A stretch of 64,000 nucleotides of DNA from an uncultured SAR116 cluster alpha proteobacterium (lineage in GTDB: Bacteria > Pseudomonadota > Alphaproteobacteria > Puniceispirillales > Puniceispirillaceae). Within the stretch, counting starts at the first letter, position 1; each line of letters opens with the position of its first letter. Below are positions 6,096 to 25,289 of this stretch, piece by piece. The notes beneath the pieces were generated by a model. That model was not told where the DNA came from. It saw only the letters and a list, made by a program, of their open reading frames with translations, and did no database searches. The stretch covers positions 43,494 to 107,493 of the forward strand of contig CABXZZ010000001.1 in assembly GCA_902516825.1 (NCBI GenBank). Direction: 5' to 3'. Position numbers and translations under genes: made by a program.

Positions 6096-6136
6096 CTTAT
6101 TCAAACAGGCTAATTATTTTGAGTAAGGAAAAGAAA

Positions 6137-7315
6137 ATGAGCGACGTTCACTTAATTACAGCTATGTTTGCTTCGGTGGACCGCCTAACTAATATTTTGC
6201 AGGTTCGTCACATACCTTTTAACTGCACTGATAATTTCGATCAAGAAAATGCATCTTCTACCAAATGCAAAACTCTTATTATCAGTCATGACTATATGTG
6301 TAAGGTGGGAAAAGATGCTGTCATTGACTTCGCTAAATCTGCGAAAGCTAGCCAAGTTTGTGCTGTAAGCAACAATCAACCAGAGTTCAGAATTAGCTCC
6401 GAACTTGGCGGTAAGTTACTCATATTCAGCCTTCCAAATGCGACAAACGATGTTATTGCCGAAGACTATGGGTTGCAAATGCTAACAACGCTTATATCTG
6501 ACCAAAGTGCAATAGCAGCGTCTGATGAGAAAAGCCTAAAATTATTTGAGTTGGCAAAACGTGTTGCCCGAACGGACGTTACTGTATTTATTAATGGTCC
6601 AACTGGAACTGGCAAAGAAGTTTTGTCCAAATTAATTCACACTCACTCGAAACGTGCTGAAGCAGGTTTTGTTGCCGTAAATTGTGCGGCAATTCCAGAA
6701 AATATGTTAGAGGCTCTATTATTTGGCCATGAGAAAGGCTCATTTACCGGCGCATCTACAACAAATAAGGGAATCTTTAGAGCAGCAGATGGGGGAACAT
6801 TATTACTAGATGAAATCTCTGAGATGCCGATTTCTTTACAAGCGAAATTATTGCGAGCTTTGCAAGAAAAATCTATAACACCTATTGGTTCTCAGGAATC
6901 TATCCCAGTTGATATCAGGGTAGTTGCAACAACCAACAGAAATATGGTTGAAGAGATCAGGAACGGTAATTTTAGAGAGGACTTATACTACAGATTAAAT
7001 GTTTTTCCTCTTTCAACATTAAGCTTGGTAGATAGACCATCAGACATCATTCCTATTTCGACAGTTCTAATTAGCAGACACTGTCAAGATAAACAGGCCA
7101 TTCCCTTTTTATCAAGACCAGCGTGCAATTTACTAGTTAATTATGATTGGCCTGGCAATGTGCGCGAGCTAGAAAATGTAATTCAACGCGCCCTGGTATT
7201 GTCAGATGGCAAAACTATCAGTGCAGAAGATATCATAATTGATAATGCTCTTCATGATGGTGGATGTCAGGCGCATATTCAAAATATGTTAGAAAAACAA
7301 GCAATTGCAGGATAA
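6137..7315 (+). CDS. Sigma54-dependent activator (FlbD-like) without recognisable DNA-binding HTH
   Basis: AAA+ motifs GPTGTGKE, LLFGHEKGSFTGA, GGTLLLDEISEMP, YDWPGNVRELENV; short C-terminus; ATG at 6137 follows AAGGAAAAG. Confidence 0.8.
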   Translation: MSDVHLITAMFASVDRLTNILQVRHIPFNCTDNFDQENASSTKCKTLIISHDYMCKVGKDAVIDFAKSAKASQVCAVSNNQPEFRISSELGGKLLIFSLPNATNDVIAEDYGLQMLTTLISDQSAIAASDEKSLKLFELAKRVARTDVTVFINGPTGTGKEVLSKLIHTHSKRAEAGFVAVNCAAIPENMLEALLFGHEKGSFTGASTTNKGIFRAADGGTLLLDEISEMPISLQAKLLRALQEKSITPIGSQESIPVDIRVVATTNRNMVEEIRNGNFREDLYYRLNVFPLSTLSLVDRPSDIIPISTVLISRHCQDKQAIPFLSRPACNLLVNYDWPGNVRELENVIQRALVLSDGKTISAEDIIIDNALHDGGCQAHIQNMLEKQAIAG

Positions 7316-7325
7316 GGGGTATAAT

Positions 7326-7640
7326 ATGACTAGTATAAACTCATCAATCGCAAAAATTGATGGCCTACATGATAGGGTTTTGGAAAAGGCCTCTGAAACT
7401 CTCAATCAATCTGGCCAAAATGTAAATTTTTCAGACCGAATGCAGAATGCACTAACCGAAGTTGCTGATGCCCAAAAGCAAGCCGCTGATAGCATGAAAG
7501 CATTTGACCTAGGCGTGGAAACTGACCTTAGTAAGGTAATGGTTGACCAGCAAGTATCCTCTCTTGGATTTCAGCTTACTTTGAATGTGCGAAATAAGAT
7601 GTTGAGTGCATATAAAGATATTTTGAATATGCCAGTTTAA
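7326..7640 (+). CDS. fliE: Flagellar hook-basal body complex protein FliE
   Basis: C-terminus SSLGFQLTLNVRNKMLSAYKDILNMPV and position before fliF. Confidence 0.85.
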   Translation: MTSINSSIAKIDGLHDRVLEKASETLNQSGQNVNFSDRMQNALTEVADAQKQAADSMKAFDLGVETDLSKVMVDQQVSSLGFQLTLNVRNKMLSAYKDILNMPV

Positions 7641-7695
7641 TCTTCCAAGCGATCTTTATGATGACTGCGAAACCAATTTAATTAGGAAATAAAAA

Positions 7696-9408
7696 ATGGC
7701 AGAAACTACAACAATGGATAATATGAATTCAACCGCAGTAGTTGAACAAGGTGGCGGTGTTTTGTCTAATGTGCGGAGATTCACTTCTGATCCTAGCTTC
7801 AAGAAATCCCTACCAACTATTATCGCTGTAGTTGTTGCAGTATTGGGCCTTATTTTGTATGTAGCGTTGCAACAACCTAGCCTAACACCGTTATATGCAT
7901 CGCTACCAGAAGCTGAAAAAGCACGTGTTGTAGATGCTCTAAAAAATGCTGGTTATGATGTGTCGATAGACCCCTCAACTGGGGATGTTTTGGTACCAAC
8001 AAATGATTATCATCAATCAAGAATGACCCTTGCAGCGCAAGGACTACCGGCTTCAATTCCTGATGGCTATTCTGCCGTTGCTGATATCCCAATTGGCTCT
8101 AGCAGATCTGTTGAAAATATTAGATTAAAACAAAGTCAAGAGATTGAGCTAGCGCGGTCGATCGGAGAAATTCAAAGCGTAATTGCAGCTCGCGTTCATC
8201 TTGCCATTCCTGAGAAGTCCGTTTTTGCGAGGACATCAATGGCGCCAACTGCGTCAGTTTTTGTCCAATTAAATGAAGGAAGAACATTAAGCAGACAGCA
8301 AGTTAATGCTATAATTCATCTAGTTTCGTCATCAGTTCCTAGCCTTGCTAAGTCTGATGTGACGGTAGTCGATCAATATGGGGGATTGCTCTCCAATCCT
8401 AATGATGACCCAGCTAGTGCGCTTTCCGATGCACAGCTGGAACACCGTATAAAAGTTGAAGCAATCTACAGAAGCCGAATTATATCCTTAGTTTCTCCTC
8501 TTGTCGGGGCAGGAAACGTAACCGCGCAGGTGAATCTTGATATTGATTTTACAAAAAGTGAAATTACAGAAGAAAGCGTTGACCCAGAAGGAAATGCCCT
8601 ACGCAGTGAGCAAAAAAGCCTTGATTTAACTGCGCAAGAAACCGCAAAAGGCGTACCTGGTGCAACTACTAACAGGGCTCCAACACAAGCGCAAATTTCC
8701 ACCCAACAAAGTCCAGGTAATGACCCAGACGAATTTAAAACTCGCTCTTCAAACGAAGTGCGTAATTATGAAGTTAGTCGTAAGGTAGAGACAACCCTTA
8801 GACCATCAAATAAGATAAACCGAATTCAAGCGTCAGTATTAGTCAGGGAAAAAGAAAGCGTAAATCCTGAGACTGGTCTTTTAGAGGCCGTAGCTTTAAC
8901 ACCAGAGCAAATTGCCAATATTGAGCAACTCGTAACGAATGCTATTGGCATTAATCTAGAGCGCGGTGACCAATTAACTGTGGATAGTGCCGCTTTCGTG
9001 TCAGATATTGAGGGTATCTCCAAACCCTGGTACGAAATCGATTTTTTCATCAATCTAGTTCAACAGGTTATGACTTTCCTTATAATGGGCGTTGTTGTTC
9101 TTGGAGTTATCCGCCCACTAATCAACAGGATTATGATACCAACAGCATCTGGGAAGCCTGGAGAAGCAATGGTTGGGTTGGATGATGATGTCGATTTAGA
9201 AGAAGTTGAAATTCAAGAAGGGGAGAGCCTTGAAGATATTAAAGCAAAATTGAAACCTAAAAAAGCATCAATTTCACCTGAAATGTTAGATACGGCAAAC
9301 TCCTATGATGATAAGGTAGCTATTATAAGAATGATCGTTGGTGAAGAATCTGGTCGTGTCGCCAATGTATTTAAGTCCATGATGAGTGCCGACAAAGAGC
9401 CTTCATAA
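7696..9408 (+). CDS. fliF: Flagellar MS-ring protein FliF
   Basis: TPLYASLPEAEKARVVDALKNAGYDV..., two TM segments, gene order. Confidence 0.95.
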   Translation: MAETTTMDNMNSTAVVEQGGGVLSNVRRFTSDPSFKKSLPTIIAVVVAVLGLILYVALQQPSLTPLYASLPEAEKARVVDALKNAGYDVSIDPSTGDVLVPTNDYHQSRMTLAAQGLPASIPDGYSAVADIPIGSSRSVENIRLKQSQEIELARSIGEIQSVIAARVHLAIPEKSVFARTSMAPTASVFVQLNEGRTLSRQQVNAIIHLVSSSVPSLAKSDVTVVDQYGGLLSNPNDDPASALSDAQLEHRIKVEAIYRSRIISLVSPLVGAGNVTAQVNLDIDFTKSEITEESVDPEGNALRSEQKSLDLTAQETAKGVPGATTNRAPTQAQISTQQSPGNDPDEFKTRSSNEVRNYEVSRKVETTLRPSNKINRIQASVLVREKESVNPETGLLEAVALTPEQIANIEQLVTNAIGINLERGDQLTVDSAAFVSDIEGISKPWYEIDFFINLVQQVMTFLIMGVVVLGVIRPLINRIMIPTASGKPGEAMVGLDDDVDLEEVEIQEGESLEDIKAKLKPKKASISPEMLDTANSYDDKVAIIRMIVGEESGRVANVFKSMMSADKEPS

Positions 9409-9473
9409 TAGTGTATTGCGAAACTAATAAATGTTTTACCATAGATTTAATCTAAATTAATGTGAGAGAAAAA

Positions 9474-10517
9474 ATGGCCGAGTCACAAAACAAATCAGAT
9501 GATGCTGACAAATCAGTATATGAGTCATTAAATGGTATCCAAAAATCAGCTATATTGATGATGCTACTTGGCGAGGAAGAAGCGGCTGAAATAATCAAGA
9601 ATCTTGGACCAAAAGAAGTTCAAGCACTGGGAGCTGCAATGTATTCCGTTCAAGGTTTAGGGCAGGACACTGTAAACGAAGTACTAGACGAGTTTTTGCA
9701 TATAATTAAACAACAAACTAGTCTGGGGCTTGGTGCTGGTAACTATATAAAAAACGTGCTGAATAAAGCAATCGGAGAAGAGCGTGCCCAATCTGTTCTA
9801 AGCAGGATTTCACCATCAAACTCACAGCGACCTATAGAGATTTTAGATTGGATGGATGGCCCATCAATTGCTGATCTTATTTTAGATGAGCATCCGCAAA
9901 TTATTGCGTTAATAATTTCTTATCTAGATTCGGGATTAGGCGCGGATGTTCTAAATCTACTACCTGAAGAAATGCAAGCTGATGTCATCGCTCGAATAGC
10001 AAACCTTGACACTGTTGGGCCAGATGCACTGCTTGAACTTGAAGATGTAATGCAGAAGAAATTCAAAGCCAATACGTCTCTTCGCGCTACTCAGGTGGGC
10101 GGCATTAAAGCAGCTGCTGCAATTATGAACTTCACTAATCAAGAGCAAGAAAGCAAAATTATGAAATCTCTTGGCAAGGATGACAAACATCTCGTTATTG
10201 CCATACAAGAGAGTATGTTTGTATTTGAAAATCTGCTTAAATCAGATGATAAGTCCCTTCAAATGCTTCTTAGAAATGTCGAAACTGATGACCTTATTCT
10301 GGCCTTAAAAGGCGCAGATGATATTCTTAGGGAAAAATTATTTTCATGTATGTCATCTCGTGCAGCAGCAAATATTGTTGATGAAATGGAAGCGCTTGGA
10401 CCCGTTCGGTTAAGCGAGGTTCAAGAGGCTCAGAAACGCATTATTAATGTTGCAAGACGCATGTCAGATGAAGGCTCTATCGTGCTAGCCGGGCGTGGCG
10501 GAGACGACTATGTCTAA
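9474..10517 (+). CDS. fliG: Flagellar motor switch protein FliG
   Basis: KSAILMMLLGEEEAAEIIKNLGPKEVQALGAAM, EHPQIIALIISYL; ATG 9474 with GAGAGAA upstream. Confidence 0.95.
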   Translation: MAESQNKSDDADKSVYESLNGIQKSAILMMLLGEEEAAEIIKNLGPKEVQALGAAMYSVQGLGQDTVNEVLDEFLHIIKQQTSLGLGAGNYIKNVLNKAIGEERAQSVLSRISPSNSQRPIEILDWMDGPSIADLILDEHPQIIALIISYLDSGLGADVLNLLPEEMQADVIARIANLDTVGPDALLELEDVMQKKFKANTSLRATQVGGIKAAAAIMNFTNQEQESKIMKSLGKDDKHLVIAIQESMFVFENLLKSDDKSLQMLLRNVETDDLILALKGADDILREKLFSCMSSRAAANIVDEMEALGPVRLSEVQEAQKRIINVARRMSDEGSIVLAGRGGDDYV

Positions 10518-10558
10518 TTTAAAAGACTTGTCTTGATTGTATTGATTGGAAACTCTTA

Positions 10559-11881
10559 ATGGCAACTGAACCAATGACCTATGCTGACGAACAGGCTGAG
10601 ATGCCAAATGCGCTTGAAGATACTGAAATCGCAAGACTTATGAAACTTGTGAGTGAGTCAGGCTATAAAAAGTCAGAAGACGCCCCAACTTTAAAAAAGC
10701 AGGCGTTTATGCCAAGATCACTTGTTGAAATAGCAATGGAATCACAGAAGAATCGAGAACAAAAAGAAAGTACAACAAACACCGAAACAAATCAAAAAGG
10801 AAGTATAAATCAAAGCGCAGATATAGATGTCCAAGGTGAAGGGACTATCAGCGATAACCCTACTGGTGAAAGTTCAATTTCAAATGAATTGACCTCTCAA
10901 ACAAAGGATACGGAGCTAGCCGATTTGGCACCTCCTTCCCTGTCAGATAAAGATATTATTAGGACTGAAGTTTCTCAACAGCCTAACACACAAGATGAAA
11001 ACCTAGACGCAGATAAGAACTCTGAAGAAGCTGATGTTTTGCAAGCTTCAACACTGCCAAAAAATAATAAAGATGATGAAAATGCCAAATTGGAAATTAC
11101 TCAAAATGAGACAAGTGACTTTAATAAGGAAATCTTGACGGAAGCTGAGCTTTCCAAGGCAGTTGAGAATGCATCCGCGCGCTATGATGAGGGGTTTAGT
11201 GCTGGACTGGAAGCTGGAAGAAATGAAATCAAGAAAGCACTAGAGCAGAAATTTTCTGAAAAACAAAATACATTTGAATTGCTAATAGCTAAACTAACTA
11301 GTATGAGCTCTGCGGAAACAAAAGAATTGGAAGCAGATATTCAGGCAGCTATTTTGTCGCTCGCGAGTGAGAGGGCTGGAATTGCAATTTTAGAAATGCC
11401 AGAAAACTTTATGACTCGAATTGAACAATTAATGAGCCGCCTTGGTAGTAGTTTAGATAGTCCTATAATCAAATTGAATATGGCCGACCTAAGACATATC
11501 GAAGCAGCAAAAGAAAACTCCGAAACACTCTCAAATATAAGAATCATTGGGGATGAAACGCTCAACCACGGAGATATTTCGATTAGTCTTGCTGGTATCG
11601 AAATAGAAGACATTATTGAAAATAGAACCTTTGTTTACCCAATAGATGTTGATTTAGAAACAGATATGGAACAGCCTTCCTCAGAACTTCATTCTGATAA
11701 ATTAGTCCGCCCTGAAACCGTTGATAAGAACACTTTGAAGGATGATATTTCAGACGACATTAATGAGAATAAAACAGACCAAGAAGAAGCTCAAGCGATC
11801 CCAAACCAAGAAATCGGGGATGAAAAACAAAATATTGAGGATGAAAATTCTGATATTAATCCGTCAGATGGGGTAGCATGA
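10559..11881 (+). CDS. fliH: Flagellar assembly protein FliH-like, long acidic N-terminal region
   Basis: Between fliG and fliI; YDEGFSAGLEAGRNE, FliH-like C-terminal part. Confidence 0.75.
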   Translation: MATEPMTYADEQAEMPNALEDTEIARLMKLVSESGYKKSEDAPTLKKQAFMPRSLVEIAMESQKNREQKESTTNTETNQKGSINQSADIDVQGEGTISDNPTGESSISNELTSQTKDTELADLAPPSLSDKDIIRTEVSQQPNTQDENLDADKNSEEADVLQASTLPKNNKDDENAKLEITQNETSDFNKEILTEAELSKAVENASARYDEGFSAGLEAGRNEIKKALEQKFSEKQNTFELLIAKLTSMSSAETKELEADIQAAILSLASERAGIAILEMPENFMTRIEQLMSRLGSSLDSPIIKLNMADLRHIEAAKENSETLSNIRIIGDETLNHGDISISLAGIEIEDIIENRTFVYPIDVDLETDMEQPSSELHSDKLVRPETVDKNTLKDDISDDINENKTDQEEAQAIPNQEIGDEKQNIEDENSDINPSDGVA

Positions 11882-13200
11882 TATCAGTAAAAGATCGACT
11901 TACACAAAGTATTAGCTCTGTCTCTTTGGAAAAAACGGTATCTATTTCAGGTAGAGTAAATAGATATGATGGGCAAATGGCAGAATGTGACGGATTCCCA
12001 GCAACAATCGGTTCGTTATGTCAGATTGATACCGAAACAGGTATTCCAGCAACAGCCGAAATAATTGGGTTTAATAAAGGGAATAATTTATTAAGCCTAC
12101 ATGATTTTGGAGCACGGATCAGCGTCGGCGCCAAAGTTTGTGTCATTGATGATGGTTATTTGATACCAGTTGGGGTCGGATTACTTGGGCGGGTTACTGA
12201 TGCTCTTGGAAAACCTCTAGATGAGATGCCCCTTCCCAAACTCAATAGCAAATGGCCTCTTCTCGGCAAAGAATTGAACCCACTTGCAAAAAATCCCGTA
12301 GACACACCACTAGATGTCGGCGTTCGGGCAATTAATAGCCTTCTTACCGTCGGAAAAGGTCAGCGCATTGGTATTATTGCGGGCTCTGGAGTGGGAAAAT
12401 CAGTTTTGCTTGCAATGATGAGCAGATATACAGAAGCAGATATTGTTGTTGTCGGTATGATTGGCGAGCGTGGAAGAGAGGTCGGGAGTTTTGTTAAAAC
12501 CATTCTTTCGGGTGAGGCAAAAAAACGCACCGCTGTTGTTGCTGTACCAGCAGACCGCTCTCCACTGTTGCGGATAAGAGGTGCAGAGAGAGCGACTGCT
12601 ATCGCTGAATTTTTTCGAGATCAAGGTAAAAATGTTCTTCTTATAATGGATTCTCTTACTAGAGTTGCGCATGCGCGTCGTGAAATTGGCCTTGCACTTG
12701 GCGAGCAGCCTACGTCAAAAGGTTATCCACCATCTGTTGTGTCCATGATTCCACGTTTGATTGAGAGAACAGGGAGTGGTATCAAAAATCAGGGGACCAT
12801 TACAGCTATTTACACAGTACTAGCAGATGGGGATGACGCAAATGACCCGGTCGTCGACACAGCACGAGCCATTTTGGATGGTCATATATTGTTATCTAGA
12901 AAACAAACACAAATGGGCATTTACCCAGCTATAGATGTCCCCATGTCCATTAGTCGAGTTATGAGCGAAATTACGGATGAAACTTTACAGAAAAGCGCGC
13001 AAAAATTTCGCCGGCTTGTCTCGTTATATATGGAAAATCGTGATTTAATTTTAATGGGTGGCTACACCTCTGGACAAGACCCAGAATTAGATGAAGCTGT
13101 TGCACTTTGGCCAAGATTAATGGCGCACATACAACAGGTTGAAACACAAAAAGCTGATTTTATCGAAAGTAAAGATGCATTAAATAGCCTGATGAAATGA
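11878..13200 (+). CDS. fliI: Flagellar type III export ATPase FliI
   Basis: GIIAGSGVGKSVLLAMM, ERGREV, LLIMDSLTRVAHARREIGLALGE. Confidence 0.95.
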   Translation: MISVKDRLTQSISSVSLEKTVSISGRVNRYDGQMAECDGFPATIGSLCQIDTETGIPATAEIIGFNKGNNLLSLHDFGARISVGAKVCVIDDGYLIPVGVGLLGRVTDALGKPLDEMPLPKLNSKWPLLGKELNPLAKNPVDTPLDVGVRAINSLLTVGKGQRIGIIAGSGVGKSVLLAMMSRYTEADIVVVGMIGERGREVGSFVKTILSGEAKKRTAVVAVPADRSPLLRIRGAERATAIAEFFRDQGKNVLLIMDSLTRVAHARREIGLALGEQPTSKGYPPSVVSMIPRLIERTGSGIKNQGTITAIYTVLADGDDANDPVVDTARAILDGHILLSRKQTQMGIYPAIDVPMSISRVMSEITDETLQKSAQKFRRLVSLYMENRDLILMGGYTSGQDPELDEAVALWPRLMAHIQQVETQKADFIESKDALNSLMK

Positions 13201-13231
13201 AACCTATTTTAGAAAATTCTCGTAAATAATC

Positions 13232-13657
13232 ATGAAACAGAAATCAATATATGAGAGATATACTCTAAAGCAGCAAATTGATATTTCAAAAAGAGCTGAG
13301 ACAATGCGCACGCTTAACTCGGAGCTTAAAAAATCTCAGGAATTAGCACAGCAACTTACAGAAATTGCGAAACAAACTAAAATTAAGACAGGTGAAACTA
13401 ATGCAATGTCTTTACGATCTTCTTCCTGGTATAGTAACGTTGTCCAAGAGCAGTTGGAAACGACAGAAAACAGAAATCAATTCTTACAACGAGAAGTAGA
13501 TGACAACCGCAGAACTCTTGCCAAAGCGGTTCATCGGAAAAATAAATCTCAAGAATCATGGCATCGTTATGAGGCTATTGAACAAGCAAACAAAGAAGAG
13601 AAACTTGAACAAGAACTCTTCAGCAGAAAACGAAATGCTAACAAATTTGGAAACTAA
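13232..13657 (+). CDS. FliJ-like coiled-coil protein (putative)
   Basis: Charged coiled-coil ORF between fliI and fliK. Confidence 0.6.
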   Translation: MKQKSIYERYTLKQQIDISKRAETMRTLNSELKKSQELAQQLTEIAKQTKIKTGETNAMSLRSSSWYSNVVQEQLETTENRNQFLQREVDDNRRTLAKAVHRKNKSQESWHRYEAIEQANKEEKLEQELFSRKRNANKFGN

Positions 13658-13707
13658 AAAAAACTATTTTTGGACTATTAAGGGTCACTTTACCACCATA
13701 AAAAGTT

Positions 13708-13722
13708 TGGCATTTTATTTGC
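13708..13722 (+). promoter_or_regulatory. Candidate sigma54 promoter TGGCATTTTATTTGC upstream of fliK
   Basis: GG-N10-GC; 42 nt upstream of ATG at 13765. Confidence 0.65.
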
Positions 13723-13764
13723 ATCGGGAACCGCAACAATTAATTCCAGAGCTAAATTGATAGT

Positions 13765-15288
13765 ATGACACACGTTACCAGCAGTACGAATTCAAGTATT
13801 TCATCCTCGCATAATGAAAAACAATCTGAAATATCTGATAATCAGACAGATACATTATTTAACGATTTATTTTCAATTGTAAGCGAACTTGATGCAGAAT
13901 CGGTCGAGTTAATAGCCAGAAAATTATCTAAAAATGGCTCAATTGAGCCTGCGCTCAGCTCGGATGCGGAAAAAATCAACTTGTTTCCTGAAAATATTAC
14001 CAAAAACAACAAACTGGTTTTTAAAAAAGATGTTAGTAGTGAAGATCAAATACACGTGCTTACGCCTTTTATAGAACGATTAAACTCATTTCTTGAGAAT
14101 AGAAATTCTGATGATGATAAAGCCAACGAGACATTAGAAATGGATTTCGTTGACAAAACTATAAATGAGGCAACTAATCTGAGTGCTATCTTAACAAATG
14201 CTGATAAGAACAGGGAACTTCCCATTCAAAAGGAACTTCGTGTATCACACCCTAACCTACCTTATGTAAACGTTAATTCAAATCCAATACGATACGGCAA
14301 CTCCACCAGTTTTAAAAATGACGCGGATAAGAACGAAAAACTTTCGTTCGTTGTTAAACTAATAGAGGATGCTATTTTCTCAAGAAAAGCTAAGGAGCCC
14401 GTTTCTGAAAAAGAAGCCGATAAAAAAAATGCATCTTCTGCTAAGCTTACGGAATTCAGTGCATTGGATGAAGCCATTGAAGCCGTTAGTGAGCTTAAAA
14501 ACAAAAAGAGGAGAAACATTGGGTTAGACGCAGCTACTAGCCCCAAAAAAATAGAGTTATCCGACTTATTGAGAGATAATCCCAAAAATAAAGATTACCT
14601 GAATACAGTGGAATCAAAGAATACTTCGATAAGTTATGCATCTGCAAGCGCGCCTAACAGTAAGAACAGAATGGCAGAAATCAACGCTCAAGCCCCAACA
14701 AGACAGGTAGAGTTAAGTCAACAATTAAACTCAAACTCTGTAAATCAAACATATACTCAGATTATTGGTGCAGACATGCATTCAGGTGGAGATAACGGGC
14801 AGGATGGTAGCGATAATCGGCAATCGTCCCAGCCGCTTCGAACAAGCTCTCCCCTTTCAGCTATTCAGAAGCTAGATATGGCGGACAAAGCCTGGAAAGA
14901 GGCGCTATTACGACGTGTTGAAATGCAAATAAAAGATGGTGGTAAAACACTTGATTTATCGCTTAATCCTAAACAATTGGGCAGAATGACCGTTTCAATC
15001 AACATGGTTGGTGATGATACTTCAATTCAAATTTCAACAGAAACTTCCGCTGCCGCAACCTTGTTATTAGAATCAGAGAGTAAACTAGCACAGATGATGC
15101 ACGACATCGGATTGAGATTAAATCTGCTTCAAGCTGGATTATCAGGCAAAAACGACAAAAATTCGACACAGGATGAGAGCAGCAAAAAATCGGAAAACTC
15201 AGCCAAGAGCAAAACTGGTAATGAAACTAAAATAAATGAAATAAATTTAAATAAATTAGATAAATCAATTTTAAATATAGTTGCATGA
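13765..15288 (+). CDS. fliK: Flagellar hook-length control protein FliK
   Basis: C-terminal LDLSLNPKQLGRMTVSINMVGDDTSIQISTET; long low-complexity N-terminus. Confidence 0.85.
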   Translation: MTHVTSSTNSSISSSHNEKQSEISDNQTDTLFNDLFSIVSELDAESVELIARKLSKNGSIEPALSSDAEKINLFPENITKNNKLVFKKDVSSEDQIHVLTPFIERLNSFLENRNSDDDKANETLEMDFVDKTINEATNLSAILTNADKNRELPIQKELRVSHPNLPYVNVNSNPIRYGNSTSFKNDADKNEKLSFVVKLIEDAIFSRKAKEPVSEKEADKKNASSAKLTEFSALDEAIEAVSELKNKKRRNIGLDAATSPKKIELSDLLRDNPKNKDYLNTVESKNTSISYASASAPNSKNRMAEINAQAPTRQVELSQQLNSNSVNQTYTQIIGADMHSGGDNGQDGSDNRQSSQPLRTSSPLSAIQKLDMADKAWKEALLRRVEMQIKDGGKTLDLSLNPKQLGRMTVSINMVGDDTSIQISTETSAAATLLLESESKLAQMMHDIGLRLNLLQAGLSGKNDKNSTQDESSKKSENSAKSKTGNETKINEINLNKLDKSILNIVA

Positions 15289-15315
15289 TCTTATAATAAT
15301 CTAAAGGAATGCGAG

Positions 15316-15891
15316 ATGGCTGAAGAAGAACAAGAAGAAAAAAAATCTAGAGGTGGTTTGATAAAAATCATTTTGTTTGCAGTCAGTGGCATTATGCTTG
15401 TTGTGATAGGTCTTGGTGCTGGTTATTTCGTATTTGGAAGTAGCCAACCTGATCCATCTGAAGAAATTGAAGCCATCATAGAACGAAAAATGGAAGAAGC
15501 TGAGGCTGAAAAAACAGCTGTGGATAATAACTCTCGCGAGAAGGTCTCAAAAGAAACTCCTGAACAAGAGAATTTTGTTACAATTTATTATGAATTTCCA
15601 GGAACCTTTACTACGAATTTACGTGGTTCTCGTAAAATGCTTCAAGTTGGAATTGGTGTTTCTACACAATATGACGATACTGTTATGATTAATGTGGAGT
15701 CACACGAATTGGCACTTCGTTCAACAATATTGGGTGTTTTAAGCGAATTTGGTGAAGATGACATTCAGGGTTCAAATGGCAAAGCTGCACTTGCTTCTGC
15801 GCTAAAAGAAGGCATAAACAATAAATTAATATTGTTAGAAAATTTTGGTGGTGTGGGAGAAGTTCTATTTACCTCATTTGTCCTTAATTAA
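15316..15891 (+). CDS. fliL: Flagellar basal body-associated protein FliL
   Basis: Single TM then FliL-like domain; between fliK and fliM. Confidence 0.85.
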   Translation: MAEEEQEEKKSRGGLIKIILFAVSGIMLVVIGLGAGYFVFGSSQPDPSEEIEAIIERKMEEAEAEKTAVDNNSREKVSKETPEQENFVTIYYEFPGTFTTNLRGSRKMLQVGIGVSTQYDDTVMINVESHELALRSTILGVLSEFGEDDIQGSNGKAALASALKEGINNKLILLENFGGVGEVLFTSFVLN

Positions 15892-15918
15892 GAATGAACT
15901 TTATTAGGAGTAATAAAA

Positions 15919-16896
15919 TTGGCCTCTACCCGTAAGTTAAGCACTGAAGAAGTCAATGCGCTAATTGAAGGGCTAGATGGCAGTGATGAAGAAACAAATT
16001 CCTTTGAAAGTGTTGATAATGGAAATGTAAGGCCGTTTGTATTTGGTTCGGATGACTTATCTCTAATGGGAGATTACTACGCTCTTCGGATGATTAATGA
16101 GCGATTTGCTCGGTTTGCAAGAAGCATTTTTTTGCCAATGCTTAGGCTTCAACCTCGTATTTCGTCATTTCCACCAGAGGTAAAGTCATTTGATGAATAC
16201 GCTGCAAATATCGATGGGTTTATGAGTATGAATATAAGCCGCATGGAAGAGTTACGCGGCAACATGATGATGGTGATTGATCCCACATTTATATCGATCC
16301 TTACAAATGCATATTATGGTGGCAAAATCGAGTCTTTAAAAAACAGACGCTCTGAATTCACAACTACAGAAGACCGGCTCATAGAATTAATCACAAAAGG
16401 CCTTAATAACGTTCTTCAAGATGCTTGGAACGACTTAACACCAACTACAATTTCATATCTAAGTAGAGAAATTAATCCGCAATTCGCATCATTTGTCGAC
16501 GGCTCAGATTTAGTAATCATATGCTCGTTCGTCGTTCAACTGCCAAATATCGATGCAGCCAGTTTTGATATAATATACCCGCTTCAAATTCTAAAACCGA
16601 TAGCATCGCAACTCCGCTCTCGTGTTCAATCAGATATGTCAGACAATGATGAGACATGGCGAGAGCGAATGGAAAAGGCAGTTCTCGAGATTCCACTTAA
16701 AATTAAGGCAAAATTAAGCGAGCCCAAACTACCTATGAAAACATTAATAAACTTGAAACAGGGAGATGTCTTCCCAATCCAAATTGGTGAGGGCGTCGAA
16801 ATACTAATGGATGAAGAGTTATTGTTCAAAGGTGAAATAGGCGAAGTAAGCGGTCAAGCTGCTGTTAATTTAACTTCGAGAATCACTAAAATTTAA
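15919..16896 (+). CDS. fliM: Flagellar motor switch protein FliM
   Basis: RKLSTEEVNALIEG, FARSIFLPMLRLQPRI; TTG start. Confidence 0.9.
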   Translation: MASTRKLSTEEVNALIEGLDGSDEETNSFESVDNGNVRPFVFGSDDLSLMGDYYALRMINERFARFARSIFLPMLRLQPRISSFPPEVKSFDEYAANIDGFMSMNISRMEELRGNMMMVIDPTFISILTNAYYGGKIESLKNRRSEFTTTEDRLIELITKGLNNVLQDAWNDLTPTTISYLSREINPQFASFVDGSDLVIICSFVVQLPNIDAASFDIIYPLQILKPIASQLRSRVQSDMSDNDETWRERMEKAVLEIPLKIKAKLSEPKLPMKTLINLKQGDVFPIQIGEGVEILMDEELLFKGEIGEVSGQAAVNLTSRITKI

Positions 16897-16953
16897 TACA
16901 AATTTTTACTAGTGTTTTCAACTAGTTTAAAAGAGGAGCAGAAAGGACAACAG

Positions 16954-17253
16954 ATGTCTGATGAAAACGAAACAAAGAATGAAGAAAATGTAGGTTATGA
17001 TAACTTACGTATTCTCGAGAATATTGAAGTAAATCTCACGGTTGAAGTTGGAAGCGCTGAGCTTAAAATTCGCGACCTTCTGCGACTAAGTGAAGGCTCT
17101 ATTATAGAACTTGACAGGTTAGCAGGTGACCCACTAGATATTTTGGCCAATGGTACCATGATAGCTAAAGGAGAAGTTGTTATGGTTGGAGAGAGATTTG
17201 GCATTCGCTTCTCTGAAATCGTATCACCAGAAAAAAGAGTAGAAAACCTATAA
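16954..17253 (+). CDS. fliN: Flagellar motor switch protein FliN
   Basis: IEVNLTVEVGSAELKIRDLLRLSEGSIIELDRLAGDPLDILANGTMIAKGEVVMVGERFGIRFSEI. Confidence 0.95.
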   Translation: MSDENETKNEENVGYDNLRILENIEVNLTVEVGSAELKIRDLLRLSEGSIIELDRLAGDPLDILANGTMIAKGEVVMVGERFGIRFSEIVSPEKRVENL

Positions 17254-17301
17254 ATAAGTAGCTTAAAGTGATAGGGAATAGAATAGTCAATATTATGACA
17301 T

Positions 17302-17315
17302 TCAGCTTTTTGAAT
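17302..17315 (+). promoter_or_regulatory. Candidate activator-binding (enhancer) motif TCAGCTTTTTGAAT inside a perfect inverted repeat
   Basis: ACATTCA-GCTTTT-TGAATGT (17298-17317); starts 92 bp upstream of the sigma54 -24 element. Confidence 0.4.
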
Positions 17316-17393
17316 GTTAAATCACATAAAACACTAAAATAATATCAATTAAATACAAAGTGTTAAACGAATTAACAAAATATTTGGTCAGTA

Positions 17394-17408
17394 TGGCACG
17401 CGTTTTGC
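17394..17408 (+). promoter_or_regulatory. Candidate sigma54 promoter TGGCACGCGTTTTGC upstream of fliO
   Basis: Matches consensus TGGCACG-N4-TTGC; 41 nt upstream of ATG at 17450. Confidence 0.8.
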
Positions 17409-17449
17409 CTTTTTAAAACATCTTATTCAGTTAAGGGTTTTTCAAAGCA

Positions 17450-17935
17450 ATGGTTGCCATCAATCCATTTAGTTACGAACAGGTTGCAATTATATTTCTA
17501 TTCCTATCCGTCATGGTAGGAGTACTTCTATTTGTGCGCCTCAACAGAGGCAAGCTAAAATTGAAACTTCAACCTGAAAAAATAATTAATATCTTAGAGG
17601 ATACAGCTATTTCTCAAACAGAGCGTCTTCGCTTAATAAAAGTTGGAGATGAAGCATTTTTGATGTCCTCTGTAAAGGGGCAATCGCCACAACTCATTAA
17701 ACTGGAGTCAGAAAACCGCGCAATTAAGCTGGCTGAAAAACAGATAGAATTAAGCCAGAAAAAATCAAAATCGATTCACATAAGGTCACCATTTGACCTC
17801 CGAACACCCAAAAAACCTAAAATTGACACAAACACAGCAGCTAACTCACAAGCTAATGCTGCCCAAACAGAATCAATATTTAATGCGATTAAGCAAGCCC
17901 GCGATAAAAACCCCTTACTAGGACTAGATAAATGA
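17450..17935 (+). CDS. fliO: Flagellar biosynthesis protein FliO-like
   Basis: Single N-terminal TM, FliO-like region, precedes fliP. Confidence 0.7.
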   Translation: MVAINPFSYEQVAIIFLFLSVMVGVLLFVRLNRGKLKLKLQPEKIINILEDTAISQTERLRLIKVGDEAFLMSSVKGQSPQLIKLESENRAIKLAEKQIELSQKKSKSIHIRSPFDLRTPKKPKIDTNTAANSQANAAQTESIFNAIKQARDKNPLLGLDK

Positions 17936-18774
17936 ATTTTTTGTCGTTGATAAAATCAAATGTTAAATTTTGGAATGGTAAAAAGCCTCACAAAATAAAA
18001 TTAGCATTAATATTCGCCAGTATTTTTTGTTTTTCGATATTAAGCAGTAATGTAGCAATTTCTCAAACAATGTTAGAAACAAGCCTTTCTGGTTTACCAG
18101 CATTAAATGTAATAAATGGTGATGGTGTAGCAGGCACCACCTATTCTTTGTCATTACAAATTCTGGCTCTTATGACCGTGTTGACAATTCTTCCTTCACT
18201 TGTATTAGGAATGACCTCTTTTACTAGAGTAATAATTGTTTTATCGATTCTCAGACAAGCAATGGGTACACAGCAGACTCCACCTAATCAGGTTCTTATA
18301 GCAATAGCATTATTTTTAACTTTTTTTATTATGGCTCCTACATTTGAGACTTTATACAATGACGCCATTTCCCCCTACCTTGAGGGTCAGATGGCGGCAG
18401 ATATCGCAATTTCAGATGGAACAAATGTTATGAAACAGTTCCTCGTTCAGAATACCAGAGTAACAGACTTAAATATGTTCTCAGATATGGTTGGCATTTC
18501 AAATTATGAGTCGTCAAAGGAGGTGCCTCTATCAGTGTTGTTGCCAGCATTTATTACATCAGAGCTAAAGACTGCCTTTCAAATAGGCTTTCTTCTGTTC
18601 CTACCTTTTCTTGTCATTGACATGGTTATTGCCTCCATTCTGATGTCTCTTGGCATGATGATGCTAAGCCCTATGCTAGTAGCTATGCCATTCAAATTAT
18701 TATTATTTGTCTTGGTAGACGGATGGGCAATGACAGTTGGCTCTCTTGTTGCCACCTATTCTATCGGAGGATAA
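17932..18774 (+). CDS. fliP: Flagellar type III export protein FliP
   Basis: TSFTRVIIVLSILRQAMGTQQTPPNQVLIAIALFLTFFIMAP. Confidence 0.95.
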   Translation: MNFLSLIKSNVKFWNGKKPHKIKLALIFASIFCFSILSSNVAISQTMLETSLSGLPALNVINGDGVAGTTYSLSLQILALMTVLTILPSLVLGMTSFTRVIIVLSILRQAMGTQQTPPNQVLIAIALFLTFFIMAPTFETLYNDAISPYLEGQMAADIAISDGTNVMKQFLVQNTRVTDLNMFSDMVGISNYESSKEVPLSVLLPAFITSELKTAFQIGFLLFLPFLVIDMVIASILMSLGMMMLSPMLVAMPFKLLLFVLVDGWAMTVGSLVATYSIGG

Positions 18775-18776
18775 AA

Positions 18777-19055
18777 ATGAACGCCGCGTATTTATTTGAT
18801 CAGAATGTCGAATTTTTGAGAATTGCGTTTTGGCAGATTATTATGGCAGCTGGCCCGTTGCTGGCAATAGCCCTTGCAGTTGGACTTATTATAGGGATAA
18901 TTCAAGCGGCTACTTCCATCAACGAAATGACGCTAAGTTTTGTCCCAAAACTTGTTATTGTAATGATATCATTTGGACTTCTTTCTAGCTTTATTTTAAC
19001 CCAGTTATCTGATTATTTTGGGTTTATTTTTGATCAAATCGTTAATATCAGCTAA
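18777..19055 (+). CDS. fliQ: Flagellar type III export protein FliQ
   Basis: GLIIGIIQAATSINEMTLSFVPKL. Confidence 0.95.
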   Translation: MNAAYLFDQNVEFLRIAFWQIIMAAGPLLAIALAVGLIIGIIQAATSINEMTLSFVPKLVIVMISFGLLSSFILTQLSDYFGFIFDQIVNIS

Positions 19056-19061
19056 TCCGAT

Positions 19062-19883
19062 ATGCTTCCACTTACAGCCCAATCAATGACCGGACTACCA
19101 GGACTTGAGCTCCAAGGACTTATTACGGTTATTTTACAGTTTTTTGTGGCTATGTTGAGAATTGGTGCGTTTATGATTTCATCTCCACTACTTGGTGCAA
19201 GATGGGTCCCCTTACAAGTAAGATTAACCATGAGTGTCATGCTAACACTTATTATTTGGCAATATACGGCCCCCGTCAGTGTGGAAGTACTTACCTCAAA
19301 TCAGGTAATATTTATCGTATTCTCCGAAATTATTATAGGACTTTCTGCTGGTCTCATTTTAACGATCTGGTTTTCGGCTGTAATGCTAGCAGGTGAGAAA
19401 GTAGCAGGCTCGTCCGGATTGAGTTTCGCAGCGCAAATAGACCCGTCTACTGGCGGTCAAACACCTGTAGTTAGTCAAATTTTTTACCTTTTTCTGCTGG
19501 TATTATTTACAAGCACTGATGGCCATTTAGTAGCTATAAACACACTTCTTGATTCCTATCGAATTTTGCCAATTGGCATTACACCGTCATTTGAAATTTT
19601 TATATCTGCGGGAATTAGTGCCGCGGGGACAATGTTTTATGCGGCTTCAATAATCATGTTGCCATTTTCTGTAATTTTACTGTTGATTAACGTTAGTATT
19701 GGCATAATTACTCGCTCTGCTCCATCTTTAAATCTTTTTTCAATTGGTTTTCCTATCACACTTATAGGTATATTTTTTGTTTTATATTTTTCAACTAACT
19801 CCCTGGCTAATTCATTGAGCAATTTAACAGATTCAAGCTTGATAAACTTAAAAGAAATAATGGAGGGTATGTTCGATGGCTGA
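19062..19883 (+). CDS. fliR: Flagellar type III export protein FliR
   Basis: Multi-TM; PLLGARWVPLQVRLTMSVMLTL; FliPQR order. Confidence 0.9.
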   Translation: MLPLTAQSMTGLPGLELQGLITVILQFFVAMLRIGAFMISSPLLGARWVPLQVRLTMSVMLTLIIWQYTAPVSVEVLTSNQVIFIVFSEIIIGLSAGLILTIWFSAVMLAGEKVAGSSGLSFAAQIDPSTGGQTPVVSQIFYLFLLVLFTSTDGHLVAINTLLDSYRILPIGITPSFEIFISAGISAAGTMFYAASIIMLPFSVILLLINVSIGIITRSAPSLNLFSIGFPITLIGIFFVLYFSTNSLANSLSNLTDSSLINLKEIMEGMFDG

Positions 19884-21024
19884 AGAATCCCAAGATGGTC
19901 AGGAGAAAACCGAAGAACCCTCCCAACGAAAAATCGATAAGTCCAGGGAAGATGGTCAGGTACTACAATCCAAGGAAATGTTTGTGTTTTCCTCTATTGC
20001 AATGGGCCTTCTTATTTTTCTATTTATACCCGAGTTTGCAATACCAAGTATGAATCAATGGGGGAGACTATTTCAAATAGAAAGTAAAGAACAACTCTCC
20101 AGCCTTCCTTTTATACGTCTATATCAAGTTTTTGAGATCATCGTCATTATTGCGTTATTTTTAGGTGTTCCGTTGATGATAGTAAGCCTTTTAACACAAC
20201 TAGCAGTCGGTGGAATAAATTTTGCCCCTAAAGCAGCCGCGTTTAAAGGCAATAAGATTAATCCTATAAAGGGGTTAAAACGAATGTTCTCGATGAAAGG
20301 GTTAGTAGAACTTGGGAAGTCTGTGCTTAAAGTTGTCCTATTAATTGGTCTTGCAGCTATTGTGATTTACATAATGCTACCTCAATTGCTCCAGATCTCG
20401 CATGGTTCTCTTAAAAGTGCGTTAGAAGTTATGTATTATGCCTTCCCATTTCTAATAGGAACGCTGCTAACCGCTTTAGCCGTAATCGCTGCTATTGATT
20501 ATTTCTGGCAACGACATGTTCACATTCAGCAATTAAAAATGACTAAGCAAGAACTTAAGGACGAACATAAACAGACTGATGGATCCCCGGAGGTAAAAGC
20601 AAAAATTCGTCGTATGCAAATGGAAAAATCACGTGAATCAAGTAAGCAAAGAGAAGCACTAGAAAACGTATCAAACGCAACAGCAGTTATCACAAACCCC
20701 ACTCACTTTGCTGTAGCTCTTAAATATAATCCAGGCGAAATAGGTGCACCTACCATTCTAGCAATGGGTCAGGGAGTTATCGCACAAAAAATAATTGAGC
20801 GTGCCAATGACAATAAAATTACAGTTTTTCGCAGTCCTTTACTTGCAAGGGCGTTATATTTCACAGGAGAGATTGGGCAAGAAATATCCGACAAACTCTA
20901 TAATGCTGTTGCAGTAGCGCTTGCGTATATTTATAGAATTGAACAAGGTGACCCTGTTGAAGAACCTGATATCTCAATTCCCGATGAATTGTCGTTTGAC
21001 GAGTTTGGTAACGTAAAAACGTAA
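19876..21024 (+). CDS. flhB: Flagellar type III export protein FlhB
   Basis: NPTH autocleavage motif (ATAVITNPTHFAVALKYNP), GQEKTEEPSQRKIDKSREDGQV. Confidence 0.95.
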   Translation: MAEESQDGQEKTEEPSQRKIDKSREDGQVLQSKEMFVFSSIAMGLLIFLFIPEFAIPSMNQWGRLFQIESKEQLSSLPFIRLYQVFEIIVIIALFLGVPLMIVSLLTQLAVGGINFAPKAAAFKGNKINPIKGLKRMFSMKGLVELGKSVLKVVLLIGLAAIVIYIMLPQLLQISHGSLKSALEVMYYAFPFLIGTLLTALAVIAAIDYFWQRHVHIQQLKMTKQELKDEHKQTDGSPEVKAKIRRMQMEKSRESSKQREALENVSNATAVITNPTHFAVALKYNPGEIGAPTILAMGQGVIAQKIIERANDNKITVFRSPLLARALYFTGEIGQEISDKLYNAVAVALAYIYRIEQGDPVEEPDISIPDELSFDEFGNVKT

Positions 21025-21072
21025 GAAATAGTTATATTAAGTTTGAAAAGAAAGTTCTTGGTTAGAGAAACG

Positions 21073-21291
21073 ATGGCACGGAATCCAAAAAGTATTGGTG
21101 AGATAATCTCCACTTTCACATTCTTTGGTGTAGCGGTGGCTTGTGTGATTCAGGCACTTGAATTTTACGAAGCAGAACAGCAATTTAGAAGCTGGGCAAG
21201 CGCTTTTGCTGGCTTATTATGCGTACTAGGAGGGTTGCGATTTTTCATCGCTGATATGACGAAAGTTATCAAGGAGAGGTTCCGAAAATGA
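21073..21291 (+). CDS. Small two-TM membrane protein, function unknown
   Basis: Two hydrophobic segments, coupled to the next ORF. Confidence 0.6.
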   Translation: MARNPKSIGEIISTFTFFGVAVACVIQALEFYEAEQQFRSWASAFAGLLCVLGGLRFFIADMTKVIKERFRK

Positions 21292-21542
21292 GCTCAGCCA
21301 AAAATATCCAAAATCCTAACTCTGCTGAAACAAGACATGTAAATTGTTATCGATGTGAATATTTATTTATTACTCATGAAAAAAATAAACGTTACGGATG
21401 CAAAAAATTTGGGTTCAAAGGACCTTATTTCCCCTCAATTACTGTATTTTCCACAACTGGCACGAAATGTGCTTATTTCAAACTGAAAAAACGACTGCAA
21501 GATGGTGAGTCGTTGTTAAACCAATCCAGGGGTAGAGAATGA
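21288..21542 (+). CDS. Small four-cysteine (zinc-ribbon-like) protein
   Basis: CYRC...YGCKKFGFKG...GTKCAYF; start and stop overlap neighbouring ORFs. Confidence 0.7.
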   Translation: MSSAKNIQNPNSAETRHVNCYRCEYLFITHEKNKRYGCKKFGFKGPYFPSITVFSTTGTKCAYFKLKKRLQDGESLLNQSRGRE

Positions 21543-22276
21543 GCACGGATTATAATGCAGTTCAAGAAAGCATCAAAATTGCCCTTGATGCAGCCGATGC
21601 GGCAACAGATGTTACTGCCGAGTACAACAAGATCAGACGCGACCATAAGAAGTTGGAGAATTCCATGAAACAGTCCCAGCGATTTATTTCTATCGTTTTT
21701 GTAAGTTCTGTAGCTGCTGCAATTGCCGCATTAGTATTTGCTGGATTAATATATTTTCGTACTTTGTCAGAACTCTCTACTATGACAACGACGAGTAGAG
21801 AAGCTCTTATCGTATTTGCCGAAAACGTAGATAATATGAATAGCTCACTAGAGCGTCTTGAGGTGTCTCTTGAAACCCAAACACAGCTTGTTTCTCTGAA
21901 CGAAACATTAATTGATGAGTTAAGCTCGCTCAAACAAACTATCGCTGACTCAAATACAACAATGGTTTCTAAATTAGATGTCACAGCAAATGCACTTACA
22001 TCCAGCAATGGTTCTCTTGCAGAGGCTCTAACTAAGGCAATCGCAAACGAATTAAACAGTCAGAATCGAAAAATGTTAGGGCAATTGCAGAAAATTGAGA
22101 AACTTACTACTAGCTCGATGTCCCAACTATCCTCTCGTATGGCGAGTGACCAAACACTATCTAAAGTTGCAGGGAGCCAGCAAGTACTTGCAAAAAGACT
22201 AGATGGTCTAGCAAATCAAAACCAACTGATATTAGAACAAATGGAAATACGTGACAACAAAATTACCTTTCCATAA
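21539..22276 (+). CDS. Single-TM coiled-coil protein, function unknown
   Basis: N-terminal helical segment, TM (ISIVFVSSVAAAIAALVFAGLIYF), long coiled-coil-like C-terminus; start overlaps upstream stop. Confidence 0.7.
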   Translation: MSTDYNAVQESIKIALDAADAATDVTAEYNKIRRDHKKLENSMKQSQRFISIVFVSSVAAAIAALVFAGLIYFRTLSELSTMTTTSREALIVFAENVDNMNSSLERLEVSLETQTQLVSLNETLIDELSSLKQTIADSNTTMVSKLDVTANALTSSNGSLAEALTKAIANELNSQNRKMLGQLQKIEKLTTSSMSQLSSRMASDQTLSKVAGSQQVLAKRLDGLANQNQLILEQMEIRDNKITFP

Positions 22277-22321
22277 GATAATATACTAATTTATGAGCCA
22301 CGATTATTTGGATTCTAACCA

Positions 22322-23158
22322 ATGGTACAAGCAGATGAAGCACCTCTTGAAGAGCAAACTGAAAAAAAGGACTCTTCATCTTCGATTAGTAATTCAGAAA
22401 CCAGTGATAAAATCGCTGAGAATTTTATTTGCATTAAAGAAGTACGTTCTATTTCTCGTGCTAAGGCGCTTCGTTTAAAAGTAGGAGACGTAATTGTTGG
22501 TATTGAGGGTAAGCCCTTTAATGGTAATGTCGAAGAACTGCTTGATATTTTTGATGAGATAGATGAACGAAAAGGCGCCCTTCTAACTATTTGGAGAGAT
22601 GACGTAGTATTTAACCTAATTATTTTAGGACCTCTTGGATGTGTATTTGAATTAACAAAAGAAGATGTGACTAAAAAAATACATGATATAATACCCAACA
22701 TAGAATTTGGAGATATTAGTGAATACGTAACGTTTGAACTGCTTCGAAATATAAGAAGTGAGTGCGATGTTTTTGATACTAGAGTATCTCAATTAGGAAT
22801 TTTTTTACCTCCTGTTTGGCTTATACAGAATAGATTATGGGAACCGTTATTAGCTACACTAGCTATTTATGCTATAACTCTGTCTGTCCACTGGGCGCTA
22901 TTTATAATTTCCTCAGTCTTATTGGCTCTTTATTTTCGTAAAGCACAACTGGTTTTACTTCGGAGTTTCAGCTTGAACAAAGAAAAAGAGTTCTGGATGA
23001 TAATAGCAGCTAAAACCATGTCTGATGCTCAAAAAATCGCACGGCTATTTAGTAATAGAATGACATTCAAACCAGATTTGATTGGGCCTCCCCCCCCAGC
23101 TAAAATAGAGCCCTCTAAAAAGAAAAAAAATCGAAAATCTTCTATACCCAGAATGTAG
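22322..23158 (+). CDS. PDZ-like domain protein with TM segments and basic C-terminal tail
   Basis: ISRAKALRLKVGDVIVGIEGKPFNGNVEELLDIFDEI (PDZ-like); hydrophobic segments near LLATLAIYAITLSVHWALFIISSVLLALYF; C-terminus KKKKNRKSS. Confidence 0.7.
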   Translation: MVQADEAPLEEQTEKKDSSSSISNSETSDKIAENFICIKEVRSISRAKALRLKVGDVIVGIEGKPFNGNVEELLDIFDEIDERKGALLTIWRDDVVFNLIILGPLGCVFELTKEDVTKKIHDIIPNIEFGDISEYVTFELLRNIRSECDVFDTRVSQLGIFLPPVWLIQNRLWEPLLATLAIYAITLSVHWALFIISSVLLALYFRKAQLVLLRSFSLNKEKEFWMIIAAKTMSDAQKIARLFSNRMTFKPDLIGPPPPAKIEPSKKKKNRKSSIPRM

Positions 23159-23200
23159 ATAATATCATTTCAAAAATTTGGTATCATTGCATTTATCTGT

Positions 23201-23277
23201 TGGTGGGCCCGGCAGGACTCGAACCTGCAACAACACGGTTATGAGCCGTGGGTTCTAACCAATTGAACTACAGGCCC
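23201..23277 (-). tRNA. tRNA with CAU anticodon (tRNA-Ile2 or elongator tRNA-Met), CCA encoded
   Basis: Minus strand GGGCCTGTAGTTCAATTGGTTAGAACCCACGGCTCATAACCGTG...GCAGGTTCGAGTCCTGCCGGGCCCACCA; cloverleaf pairs. Confidence 0.93.
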
Positions 23278-23291
23278 AGAACAGATAATTA

Positions 23292-25289
23292 TCAGTGCTC
23301 AAGAAAACTTCTTAGTTTTCTAGAACGTGAAGGATGTTTAAGCTTTCTGAGCGCCTTTGCCTCAATCTGCCTTATTCTTTCTCTAGTCACAGAGAATTGC
23401 TGTCCAACCTCCTCTAAAGTATGGTCTGTATTCATACCAATACCGAAACGCATTCGCAAGACGCGTTCTTCTCTCGGGGTCAAACTTGCTAAAACTCTTG
23501 TAGTTGTTTCTCTTAGATTAGAGTGAATGGCGGCTTCTAAAGGCTGTATCGCATTTTTATCTTCAATAAAATCTCCTAGCTGACTATCATCTTCATCACC
23601 AATAGGTGTCTCAAGACTTATTGGCTCTTTTGCAATTTTCATCACTTTACGGACCTTATCTAAAGGCATAGATAGTTTTTCTGAGAGTTCTTCTGGGGTA
23701 GGCTCTCTGCCAATTTCATGCAACATCTGACGCGAAGTGCGAACAAGCTTATTAATTGTTTCTATCATGTGAACAGGAATACGGATAGTTCTTGCTTGAT
23801 CAGCAATAGAGCGTGTAATAGCTTGTCTTATCCACCATGTCGCATAAGTTGAGAACTTGTACCCACGTCTATATTCGAACTTATCAACAGCTTTCATAAG
23901 CCCAATATTTCCCTCTTGGATCAAGTCAAGGAACTGCAAACCCCGGTTAGTATATTTTTTAGCAATAGAAATAACCAGCCTGAGGTTTGCTTCAACCATC
24001 TCTTTTTTCGCGCGAGCTGCCTCTCTTTGACCACGTTGAATAGTCAGAAACACCTCTTTAAATTCTGGAATTGATAACCCTACATCTTCTGCTAAGATAG
24101 ATATCTTACCTTTGATATCTGAAACCTTTTGCGAATGTAAAACGCTAAGTTTCTGCCATGCCTTTGTCTTATATTTAGGGTGGGGCCAAATTTCATCTAA
24201 CTCATGCCCTAACCAAGCTTCCAGAAACTGACCTCTGGCGATACCACTGCCTGTAGCAACCAACATTAATTGGCCTTCTAATGAAGTGAGATGTTTATTA
24301 AGCTCTGATAGCTGGGAAGATAAAGCTTCGAGCCTGCTTGCATTAAGATAAATGTTTTGCATTTGCTCAGCCAGCGCAATACGTTTTGATTGCAATTTCT
24401 GAAATTCATCTTCACTAAGTTCTTCGCCTGCAAGTTGTCTTTCCTGCAAGTATTCATAGATTTTAAAAGTGCCCGCAATTTCATTCAAAGTAGCCATAAC
24501 ATCGTCAAAAACAGCCTCCTCCATTGCCGCTAGCGATAATGTTAAATCATCTCCATCATCTCCATCTTCAGAATCTGATACTTCTTCTGTCCTCTCTTTA
24601 TTAGAGGATAATTCTTCTGTTTCATCATCCTCATGTTCTTCATCTTCATCTTCATCTACAACACCTTCAGAAATCTCGTTAGATACGGAAATATTATGCA
24701 CAGGCATAGTAGAGTTCACCGACATATCTTCAATTGGCGTGCCATTAAGCTTTGTATACGTAGTATCAAGATCGATAATATCTCTTAACGGCACTCCTCC
24801 TTCTATAATTTGCTGCTGCCATTGGAGGAGTGCTCTTATTGTTAGTGGGCTCTCGCAAATTCCGCCAATCATCATTTCTCGGCCTGCTTCAATTCGCTTT
24901 GCTATCGCAATTTCACCTTCACGCGATAATAGCTCTACAGAACCCATTTCTCGCAAATACATTCGCACCGGATCATCCGAGCCAGCGCTGTCATTATCTG
25001 ATACGTTTCCAGTAGCGGCCTCAGTTTCATTTTCATCGGAGTTAGTTTCTTCTTGTTCGGCAGATTCAATAACCGAAACACCCATTTCTGAGAGAGCGGA
25101 CATTACATCTTCGATTTGCTCAGATGTTAGTTCTTCTTGCGGAAGCGCTGCATTCAGTTCGTCGTGGGTCACAAAACCTGCGCTTTGACCCTTTTTTATG
25201 AGTGCCTTAATTTTTAAATTGTTAGTATCGAGCACAGGCGCATCTGCTACCTCTGCTGAAACGGAAGCCGCAGCTTGTTTTCTTGCCAT
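23292..25289 (-). CDS. rpoD: RNA polymerase primary sigma factor RpoD
   Basis: [59 protein letters not shown]. Confidence 0.97.

Follow-up and report, generated by a model that had tools for sequence, protein, structure and literature searches.

Directly behind flhB, an uncultured SAR116 alphaproteobacterium carries four genes, and the question is what they contribute to the flagellum. The initial annotation described a two-transmembrane (TM) protein, a four-Cys protein, a single-TM protein and a PDZ-TM protein, which together resembled an envelope-spanning accessory complex of unknown function, possibly serving motor placement, the stator or export quality control. We analysed the genes and their surroundings in a window of 64,000 nucleotides (contig CABXZZ010000001.1, positions 43,494 to 107,493) and in related genomes.

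Four intact genes behind flhB

Four open reading frames, P1 to P4, lie on the plus strand 3ʹ of flhB (19876–21024, plus strand), all intact and in operon order, as had been described. P1 (21073–21291) encodes 72 aa, P2 (21288–21542) 84 aa, P3 (21539–22276) 245 aa and P4 (22322–23158) 278 aa. The 4-nt start/stop overlaps reported for the first three genes are present as two ATGA sequences, at 21288–21291 for P1/P2 and at 21539–21542 for P2/P3. P4 starts 45 nt downstream of P3 in the window, and in Octadecabacter these two genes overlap by 4 nt. The start of P1, originally placed at TTG 21043, had to be moved to the conserved ATG 21073 (MARNPKSIGE...), which is preceded by 'agaga'; the TTG was rejected, as relatives have no conserved upstream extension. 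Because homologues of P1–P4 stand in the same order in dozens of genomes, we regard them as conserved genes and not as chance reading frames. The nearest copies belong to named relatives that place the host in SAR116 (Puniceispirillales).

P1 consists of two TM segments with short basic ends, and it was found in every module locus as well as in Octadecabacter. P2 is a soluble protein with the Cys spacing CxxC-x14-C-x22-C; all four Cys are invariant in 22 homologues and lie in the strongly kept motif FxTHxxxRPxGCxxFGFK..LPSxxVxxxTGxxCAY. No Pfam family matched P2 at the cut-off, and its AlphaFold model reached a pLDDT of only 41; structure prediction was confined to eight close sequences. A sigma-54-like site inside P2 (21458–21473, 66 nt before P3) was discounted, as it overlies the codons of the conserved TGxxCAY.

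For P4, the description as a PDZ-TM protein was confirmed by both profile and fold. Its PDZ domain (residues ~30–100) gave a profile match to the DegQ/DegP PDZ in the PDB (E = 7e-5) and a Foldseek match to the RseP PDZ (E = 4e-4), and PDZ_6 was matched in 15 of 23 P4 members, with single-sequence Pfam scores below the gathering cut-off. The AlphaFold model of P4 had low overall confidence, with the PDZ part alone being usable. A hydrophobic part of ~40 residues (~166–207), followed by a basic C-terminus, probably forms a membrane hairpin, so that the PDZ domain would be cytoplasmic. DUF2628 missed its gathering score in this membrane part (19.4 vs 23 bits) and matched weakly in 10 of the 23 members. 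Neither a signal peptide nor a protease domain was found in P4.

Taken by these predictions, P1 and P4 resemble hairpins in the inner membrane whose ends face the cytoplasm, P2 looks cytoplasmic, and no outer-membrane or secreted component was found among P1–P4. The term "envelope-spanning" therefore fits P3 only, which has the sole large periplasmic part. This topology bears on the possibility that the genes serve to place the basal body or to form a periplasmic scaffold, acting in polar positioning or in widening of the stator ring. The model for such a set is PflC of Campylobacter, a motor accessory protein whose PDZ domains build the motor disk (PMC12222027), and a scaffold would suit both the PDZ domain of P4 and the ring-building FlgP and FlgT of the same motors. 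However, PflC is periplasmic and HtrA-like, whereas P4, with its membrane hairpin, lacks the signal peptide and the protease domain and has a PDZ domain predicted to be cytoplasmic; the module also has no element of the FlhF/FlhG type. We consider a scaffold role distinctly improbable.

Distribution with one flagellar type

To what extent the module belongs to the flagellum was assessed in 61 relatives surveyed for flhB, P3 and P4. The genes were present in 43 (flhB), 42 (P3) and 43 (P4) genomes; all three occurred together in 42 and none of them in 17 (Fisher p = 1e-14), the latter including a genome that is 99% complete in a single contig (G043). The order flhB-P1-P2-P3-P4 was seen in all loci read. 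Two apparent exceptions, which retain other flagellar genes, were set aside as assemblies broken between flhB and P4: the contig of G018 starts inside P4, with motAB adjoining, and that of G030 stops 20 codons into flhB. This joint presence and absence upholds the idea of a flagellar module coupled to flhB, and the module was found in none of the non-flagellated relatives, where its presence had been set beforehand as grounds for giving the idea up. Separately, a bin of the same genus with 7% contamination (G008) contained a strongly divergent flhB followed by the whole module on contig C172, and this copy is probably foreign DNA.

Outside SAR116, the distribution is narrow. P3 and P2 were found in the class sample (338 genomes) only in SAR116 and three other families, to which a second sample added one family, and a phylum sample of 339 genomes yielded no further credible P3. 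Coiled-coil matches to the P3 profile in G150, G275, G252 and others were treated as noise, covering the helical part only and lying mostly in longer ORFs. P1–P4 follow flhB in the same order in SAR116 and the four other alphaproteobacterial families, where P4 was seen in locus L122 and lies beyond the stretch read in locus L175.

FlhB itself was present in 133 of 202 class genomes. The module accompanied all six FlhB proteins scoring at least 280 bits and none of the 127 others, the best of which scored 221 bits. A maximum-likelihood tree was built from 38 FlhB rows; being unrooted, it gives by itself neither the date nor the direction of a transfer. The 17 module carriers stand on one side of a single branch of this tree (support 100/98), corresponding to one change. 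A survey of Rhodobacterales names the Fla1 cluster of Rhodobacter (Cereibacter) sphaeroides (RSP_0032–RSP_0083) fla3-type and describes this type as horizontally mobile (PMC12363192). The FlhB of the window falls into the clade of Octadecabacter, which serves as the fla3-like reference and is so classed by gene content. This clade is separate from the FlhB of fla2 and from the ordinary FlhB of alphaproteobacteria. The fla2 cluster of Marinovum has no module, and its FlhB lies outside the module clade. Conservation across the alphaproteobacteria, which had been proposed as a check, was thus not observed; the module tracks one flagellar type only.

Two further observations concern the FlhB tree. 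Two genomes of one family (G197 and G071, f15) carry an FlhB that branches as sister of the module clade and has no module behind it; this lineage could serve as an outgroup when the gain of the module is dated. Two genomes of another family (G158 and G257, both f102) have FlhB of different flagellar types, which suggests replacement or transfer.

A cluster of this type was found on plasmid pOA238_118 of Octadecabacter arcticus (NC_020909.1), reached through a P2 match on the plasmid. Here P1–P4 stand behind flhB in the same order (E = 1.7e-20, 1.5e-21, 8.7e-26 and 1.8e-39, respectively), with rpoN and motAB next; FlgT and an LPP20 (FlgP-type) lipoprotein are encoded in the same cluster. The module is unnamed there, with P1 and P2 unannotated, and the P3 homologue (WP_245581584.1, ~36.1–37.4 kb) is annotated from a late start that removes the conserved N-terminal motif. 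A plasmid search outside Octadecabacter found no P3 and, for P2, one weak match, a 72-aa Rossellomorea protein (CP128836.1, 5705–5920). Its label as a uracil-DNA glycosylase seems mistaken, and the four-Cys domain may not be confined to flagella.

That a mobile cluster is carried on a plasmid in Octadecabacter would also be expected if P1–P4 were passengers travelling with it and had no part in motility. The order of the four genes is nevertheless kept across FlhB divergence down to ~43–47% identity, their residues are strongly conserved, and the module is lost only together with the flagellum, which makes passenger genes very hard to credit.

P3 and MotF of R. sphaeroides

The flagellar cluster of the window was compared with that of R. 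sphaeroides. A FleT-like sigma-54 activator without HTH (6080–7315, plus strand) is followed by fliE, F, G, H, I, J, K, L, M, N, O, P, Q and R, and this run (6080–19883, plus strand) is collinear with RSP_0051–RSP_0065. The order in R. sphaeroides is torF/fleT (RSP_0051), fliE (RSP_0052), the same genes from fliF to fliR, flhB (RSP_0066) and a hypothetical gene, RSP_0067 (PMC9779115). The window shares this Fla1 order, with sigma-54 activator, fliE to fliR, flhB and then the module. RSP_0067, the next annotated gene after flhB, is presumably motF, and P3 occupies the corresponding position, behind flhB at the end of a fleT-fliEFGHIJKLMNOPQR-flhB cluster.

The FleT-like gene forms a divergent pair with a FleQ-like sigma-54 activator carrying HTH_8 (4814–5917, minus strand), and the two resemble fleQ and fleT of R. 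sphaeroides. The whole window is enriched in sigma-54 (-24/-12)-like sites, with 24 observed vs 8 expected; examples are 3922–3937, 13708–13723, 17394–17409 and, on the minus strand, 5974–5989, and several are located in the gaps that precede flagellar genes.

P3 begins with a short N-terminus, predicted to be cytoplasmic, that bears the very conserved motif SIKxALDAADAATDVTxE. One TM segment is predicted at ~49–67, with a positive N-side (+3 vs +0.15), and the long, Gly/Pro-poor C-terminal region is predicted to be periplasmic. The end of the protein (22262–22273) reads [IV]x[FY]P in nearly all members, while the middle part varies freely. MotF (Ramirez-Cabrera et al. 2012; reviewed in PMC7277832) is a protein of 24 kDa with a TM segment at 54–74 and a periplasmic C-terminus. 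By prediction, P3 has the same topology, being bitopic and in the range of ~24–27 kDa, with a TM segment at ~50–70 and the C-terminus in the periplasm.

The flagellar setting is also alike. The accessory parts of Fla1 in R. sphaeroides are FlgT, FlgP and MotF (PMC7277832). Of 10 module genomes examined, 9 contain FlgT_N. FlgP and FlgT are neighbours in the genome of the window, FliL and the sigma-54 activators are encoded in the window itself, and rpoN lies beside the module in relatives. Considering synteny, topology and the Octadecabacter homologue, P3 is probably the counterpart of R. sphaeroides MotF (RSP_0067), the likeness being one of position and topology. The verdict "function unknown" was too pessimistic for P3, for which MotF is a strong counterpart. 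P1, P2 and P4 are uncharacterised and are not described as partners in the papers on MotF consulted here. MotF was described mainly from Rhodobacteraceae; P3, in contrast, is found in SAR116 and further marine alphaproteobacteria.

Other proteins of similar name or role were compared. The rhizobial MotF (ATU8132/SMc03057), which has a FliL-superfamily domain and a signal peptide, was rejected as a counterpart; P3 gives no FliL match, and the name alone is common to both. MotE/MotK of Cereibacter Fla2 and MotC/MotE of Sinorhizobium are likewise lineage-specific and needed for stator work, but they are secreted periplasmic proteins with signal peptides from another flagellar type, set apart here by their descriptions, with no common domain seen.

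Proposed action on the stator

The neighbours on the other side of the module are stator genes. P4 directly adjoins motB-motA and rpoN in G018 and in three complete SAR116 genomes, G015, G022 and G037. The genome of the window has MotA/B encoded on contig C3 and not at the module; here P4 is followed on the opposite strand by tRNA-Met(CAT) (23201–23277, minus strand), where the flagellar block of this lineage ends, and by rpoD. The region 23159–25289 of the window, as opposed to motB-motA-rpoN in the three complete genomes, is a rearrangement. "Stator" was among the earlier guesses, and this one gained support.

We propose, with a probability of roughly 0.6, that P1–P4 form an accessory module of the Fla1/fla3-type motor that acts on the stator and not on export, with P3 as the MotF counterpart. 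In R. sphaeroides, loss of MotF paralyses Fla1 and is suppressed by plug mutations in MotB, as is loss of FliL, and MotF acts with FliL in activating the MotA/B stator (PMC7277832). By analogy, P3 would be anchored in the inner membrane and its long periplasmic helix would reach the plug/linker region of MotB. It would act with FliL and the FlgT ring in helping incoming MotA/MotB to release the plug and open the proton channel. P1 and P4 may keep both P3 and the stator positioned in the inner membrane next to the rotor, the PDZ domain of P4 binding a protein tail on the cytoplasmic side as a putative docking site, and P2 could be a small cytoplasmic metal-binding factor that helps to assemble or stabilise the set.

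The main rival is that P1–P4 serve the export gate, which they would fold, protect or switch, either in quality control of FliPQR-FlhB or in the substrate switch. Such a role would account for the constant position of the module directly behind flhB, with which it is probably co-transcribed and co-translated, and it would suit P1 and P4 as small inner-membrane hairpins, the PDZ domain of P4 being able to read a C-terminal tail. Yet the 127 other flagellated alphaproteobacteria with FlhB manage without the module, motB-motA adjoin it on its other side, and the defect after MotF loss in R. sphaeroides is one of rotation that is suppressed in MotB. Given this narrow distribution and the MotF phenotype, we judge an export function unlikely in spite of the flhB linkage.

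A more specific form of the stator reading is that P1–P4 make up a single stable subcomplex of the inner membrane that is new as a unit and defining for Fla1/fla3-type motors. In it, a cytoplasmic PDZ scaffold and the four-Cys protein would control from within the cell when the MotF-like arm opens the stator. We offer this tentatively and with considerable doubt; if true, it would mean a cytoplasmic gate on stator activation that is not described in other motors.

Action on the stator would make these anonymous genes, from a marine bacterial group that is widespread, the source of a testable prediction on how stators open. MotF, whose mechanism is unsolved, would gain three candidate partners in P1, P2 and P4, and dozens of diverse P3 sequences are usable for structure prediction of the MotF family. 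The module can serve as a genomic marker that identifies the Fla1/fla3 flagellar type at one look, and the placement of the Octadecabacter plasmid cluster beside marine alphaproteobacterial lineages in the FlhB tree bears on the proposed gammaproteobacterial origin of R. sphaeroides Fla1.
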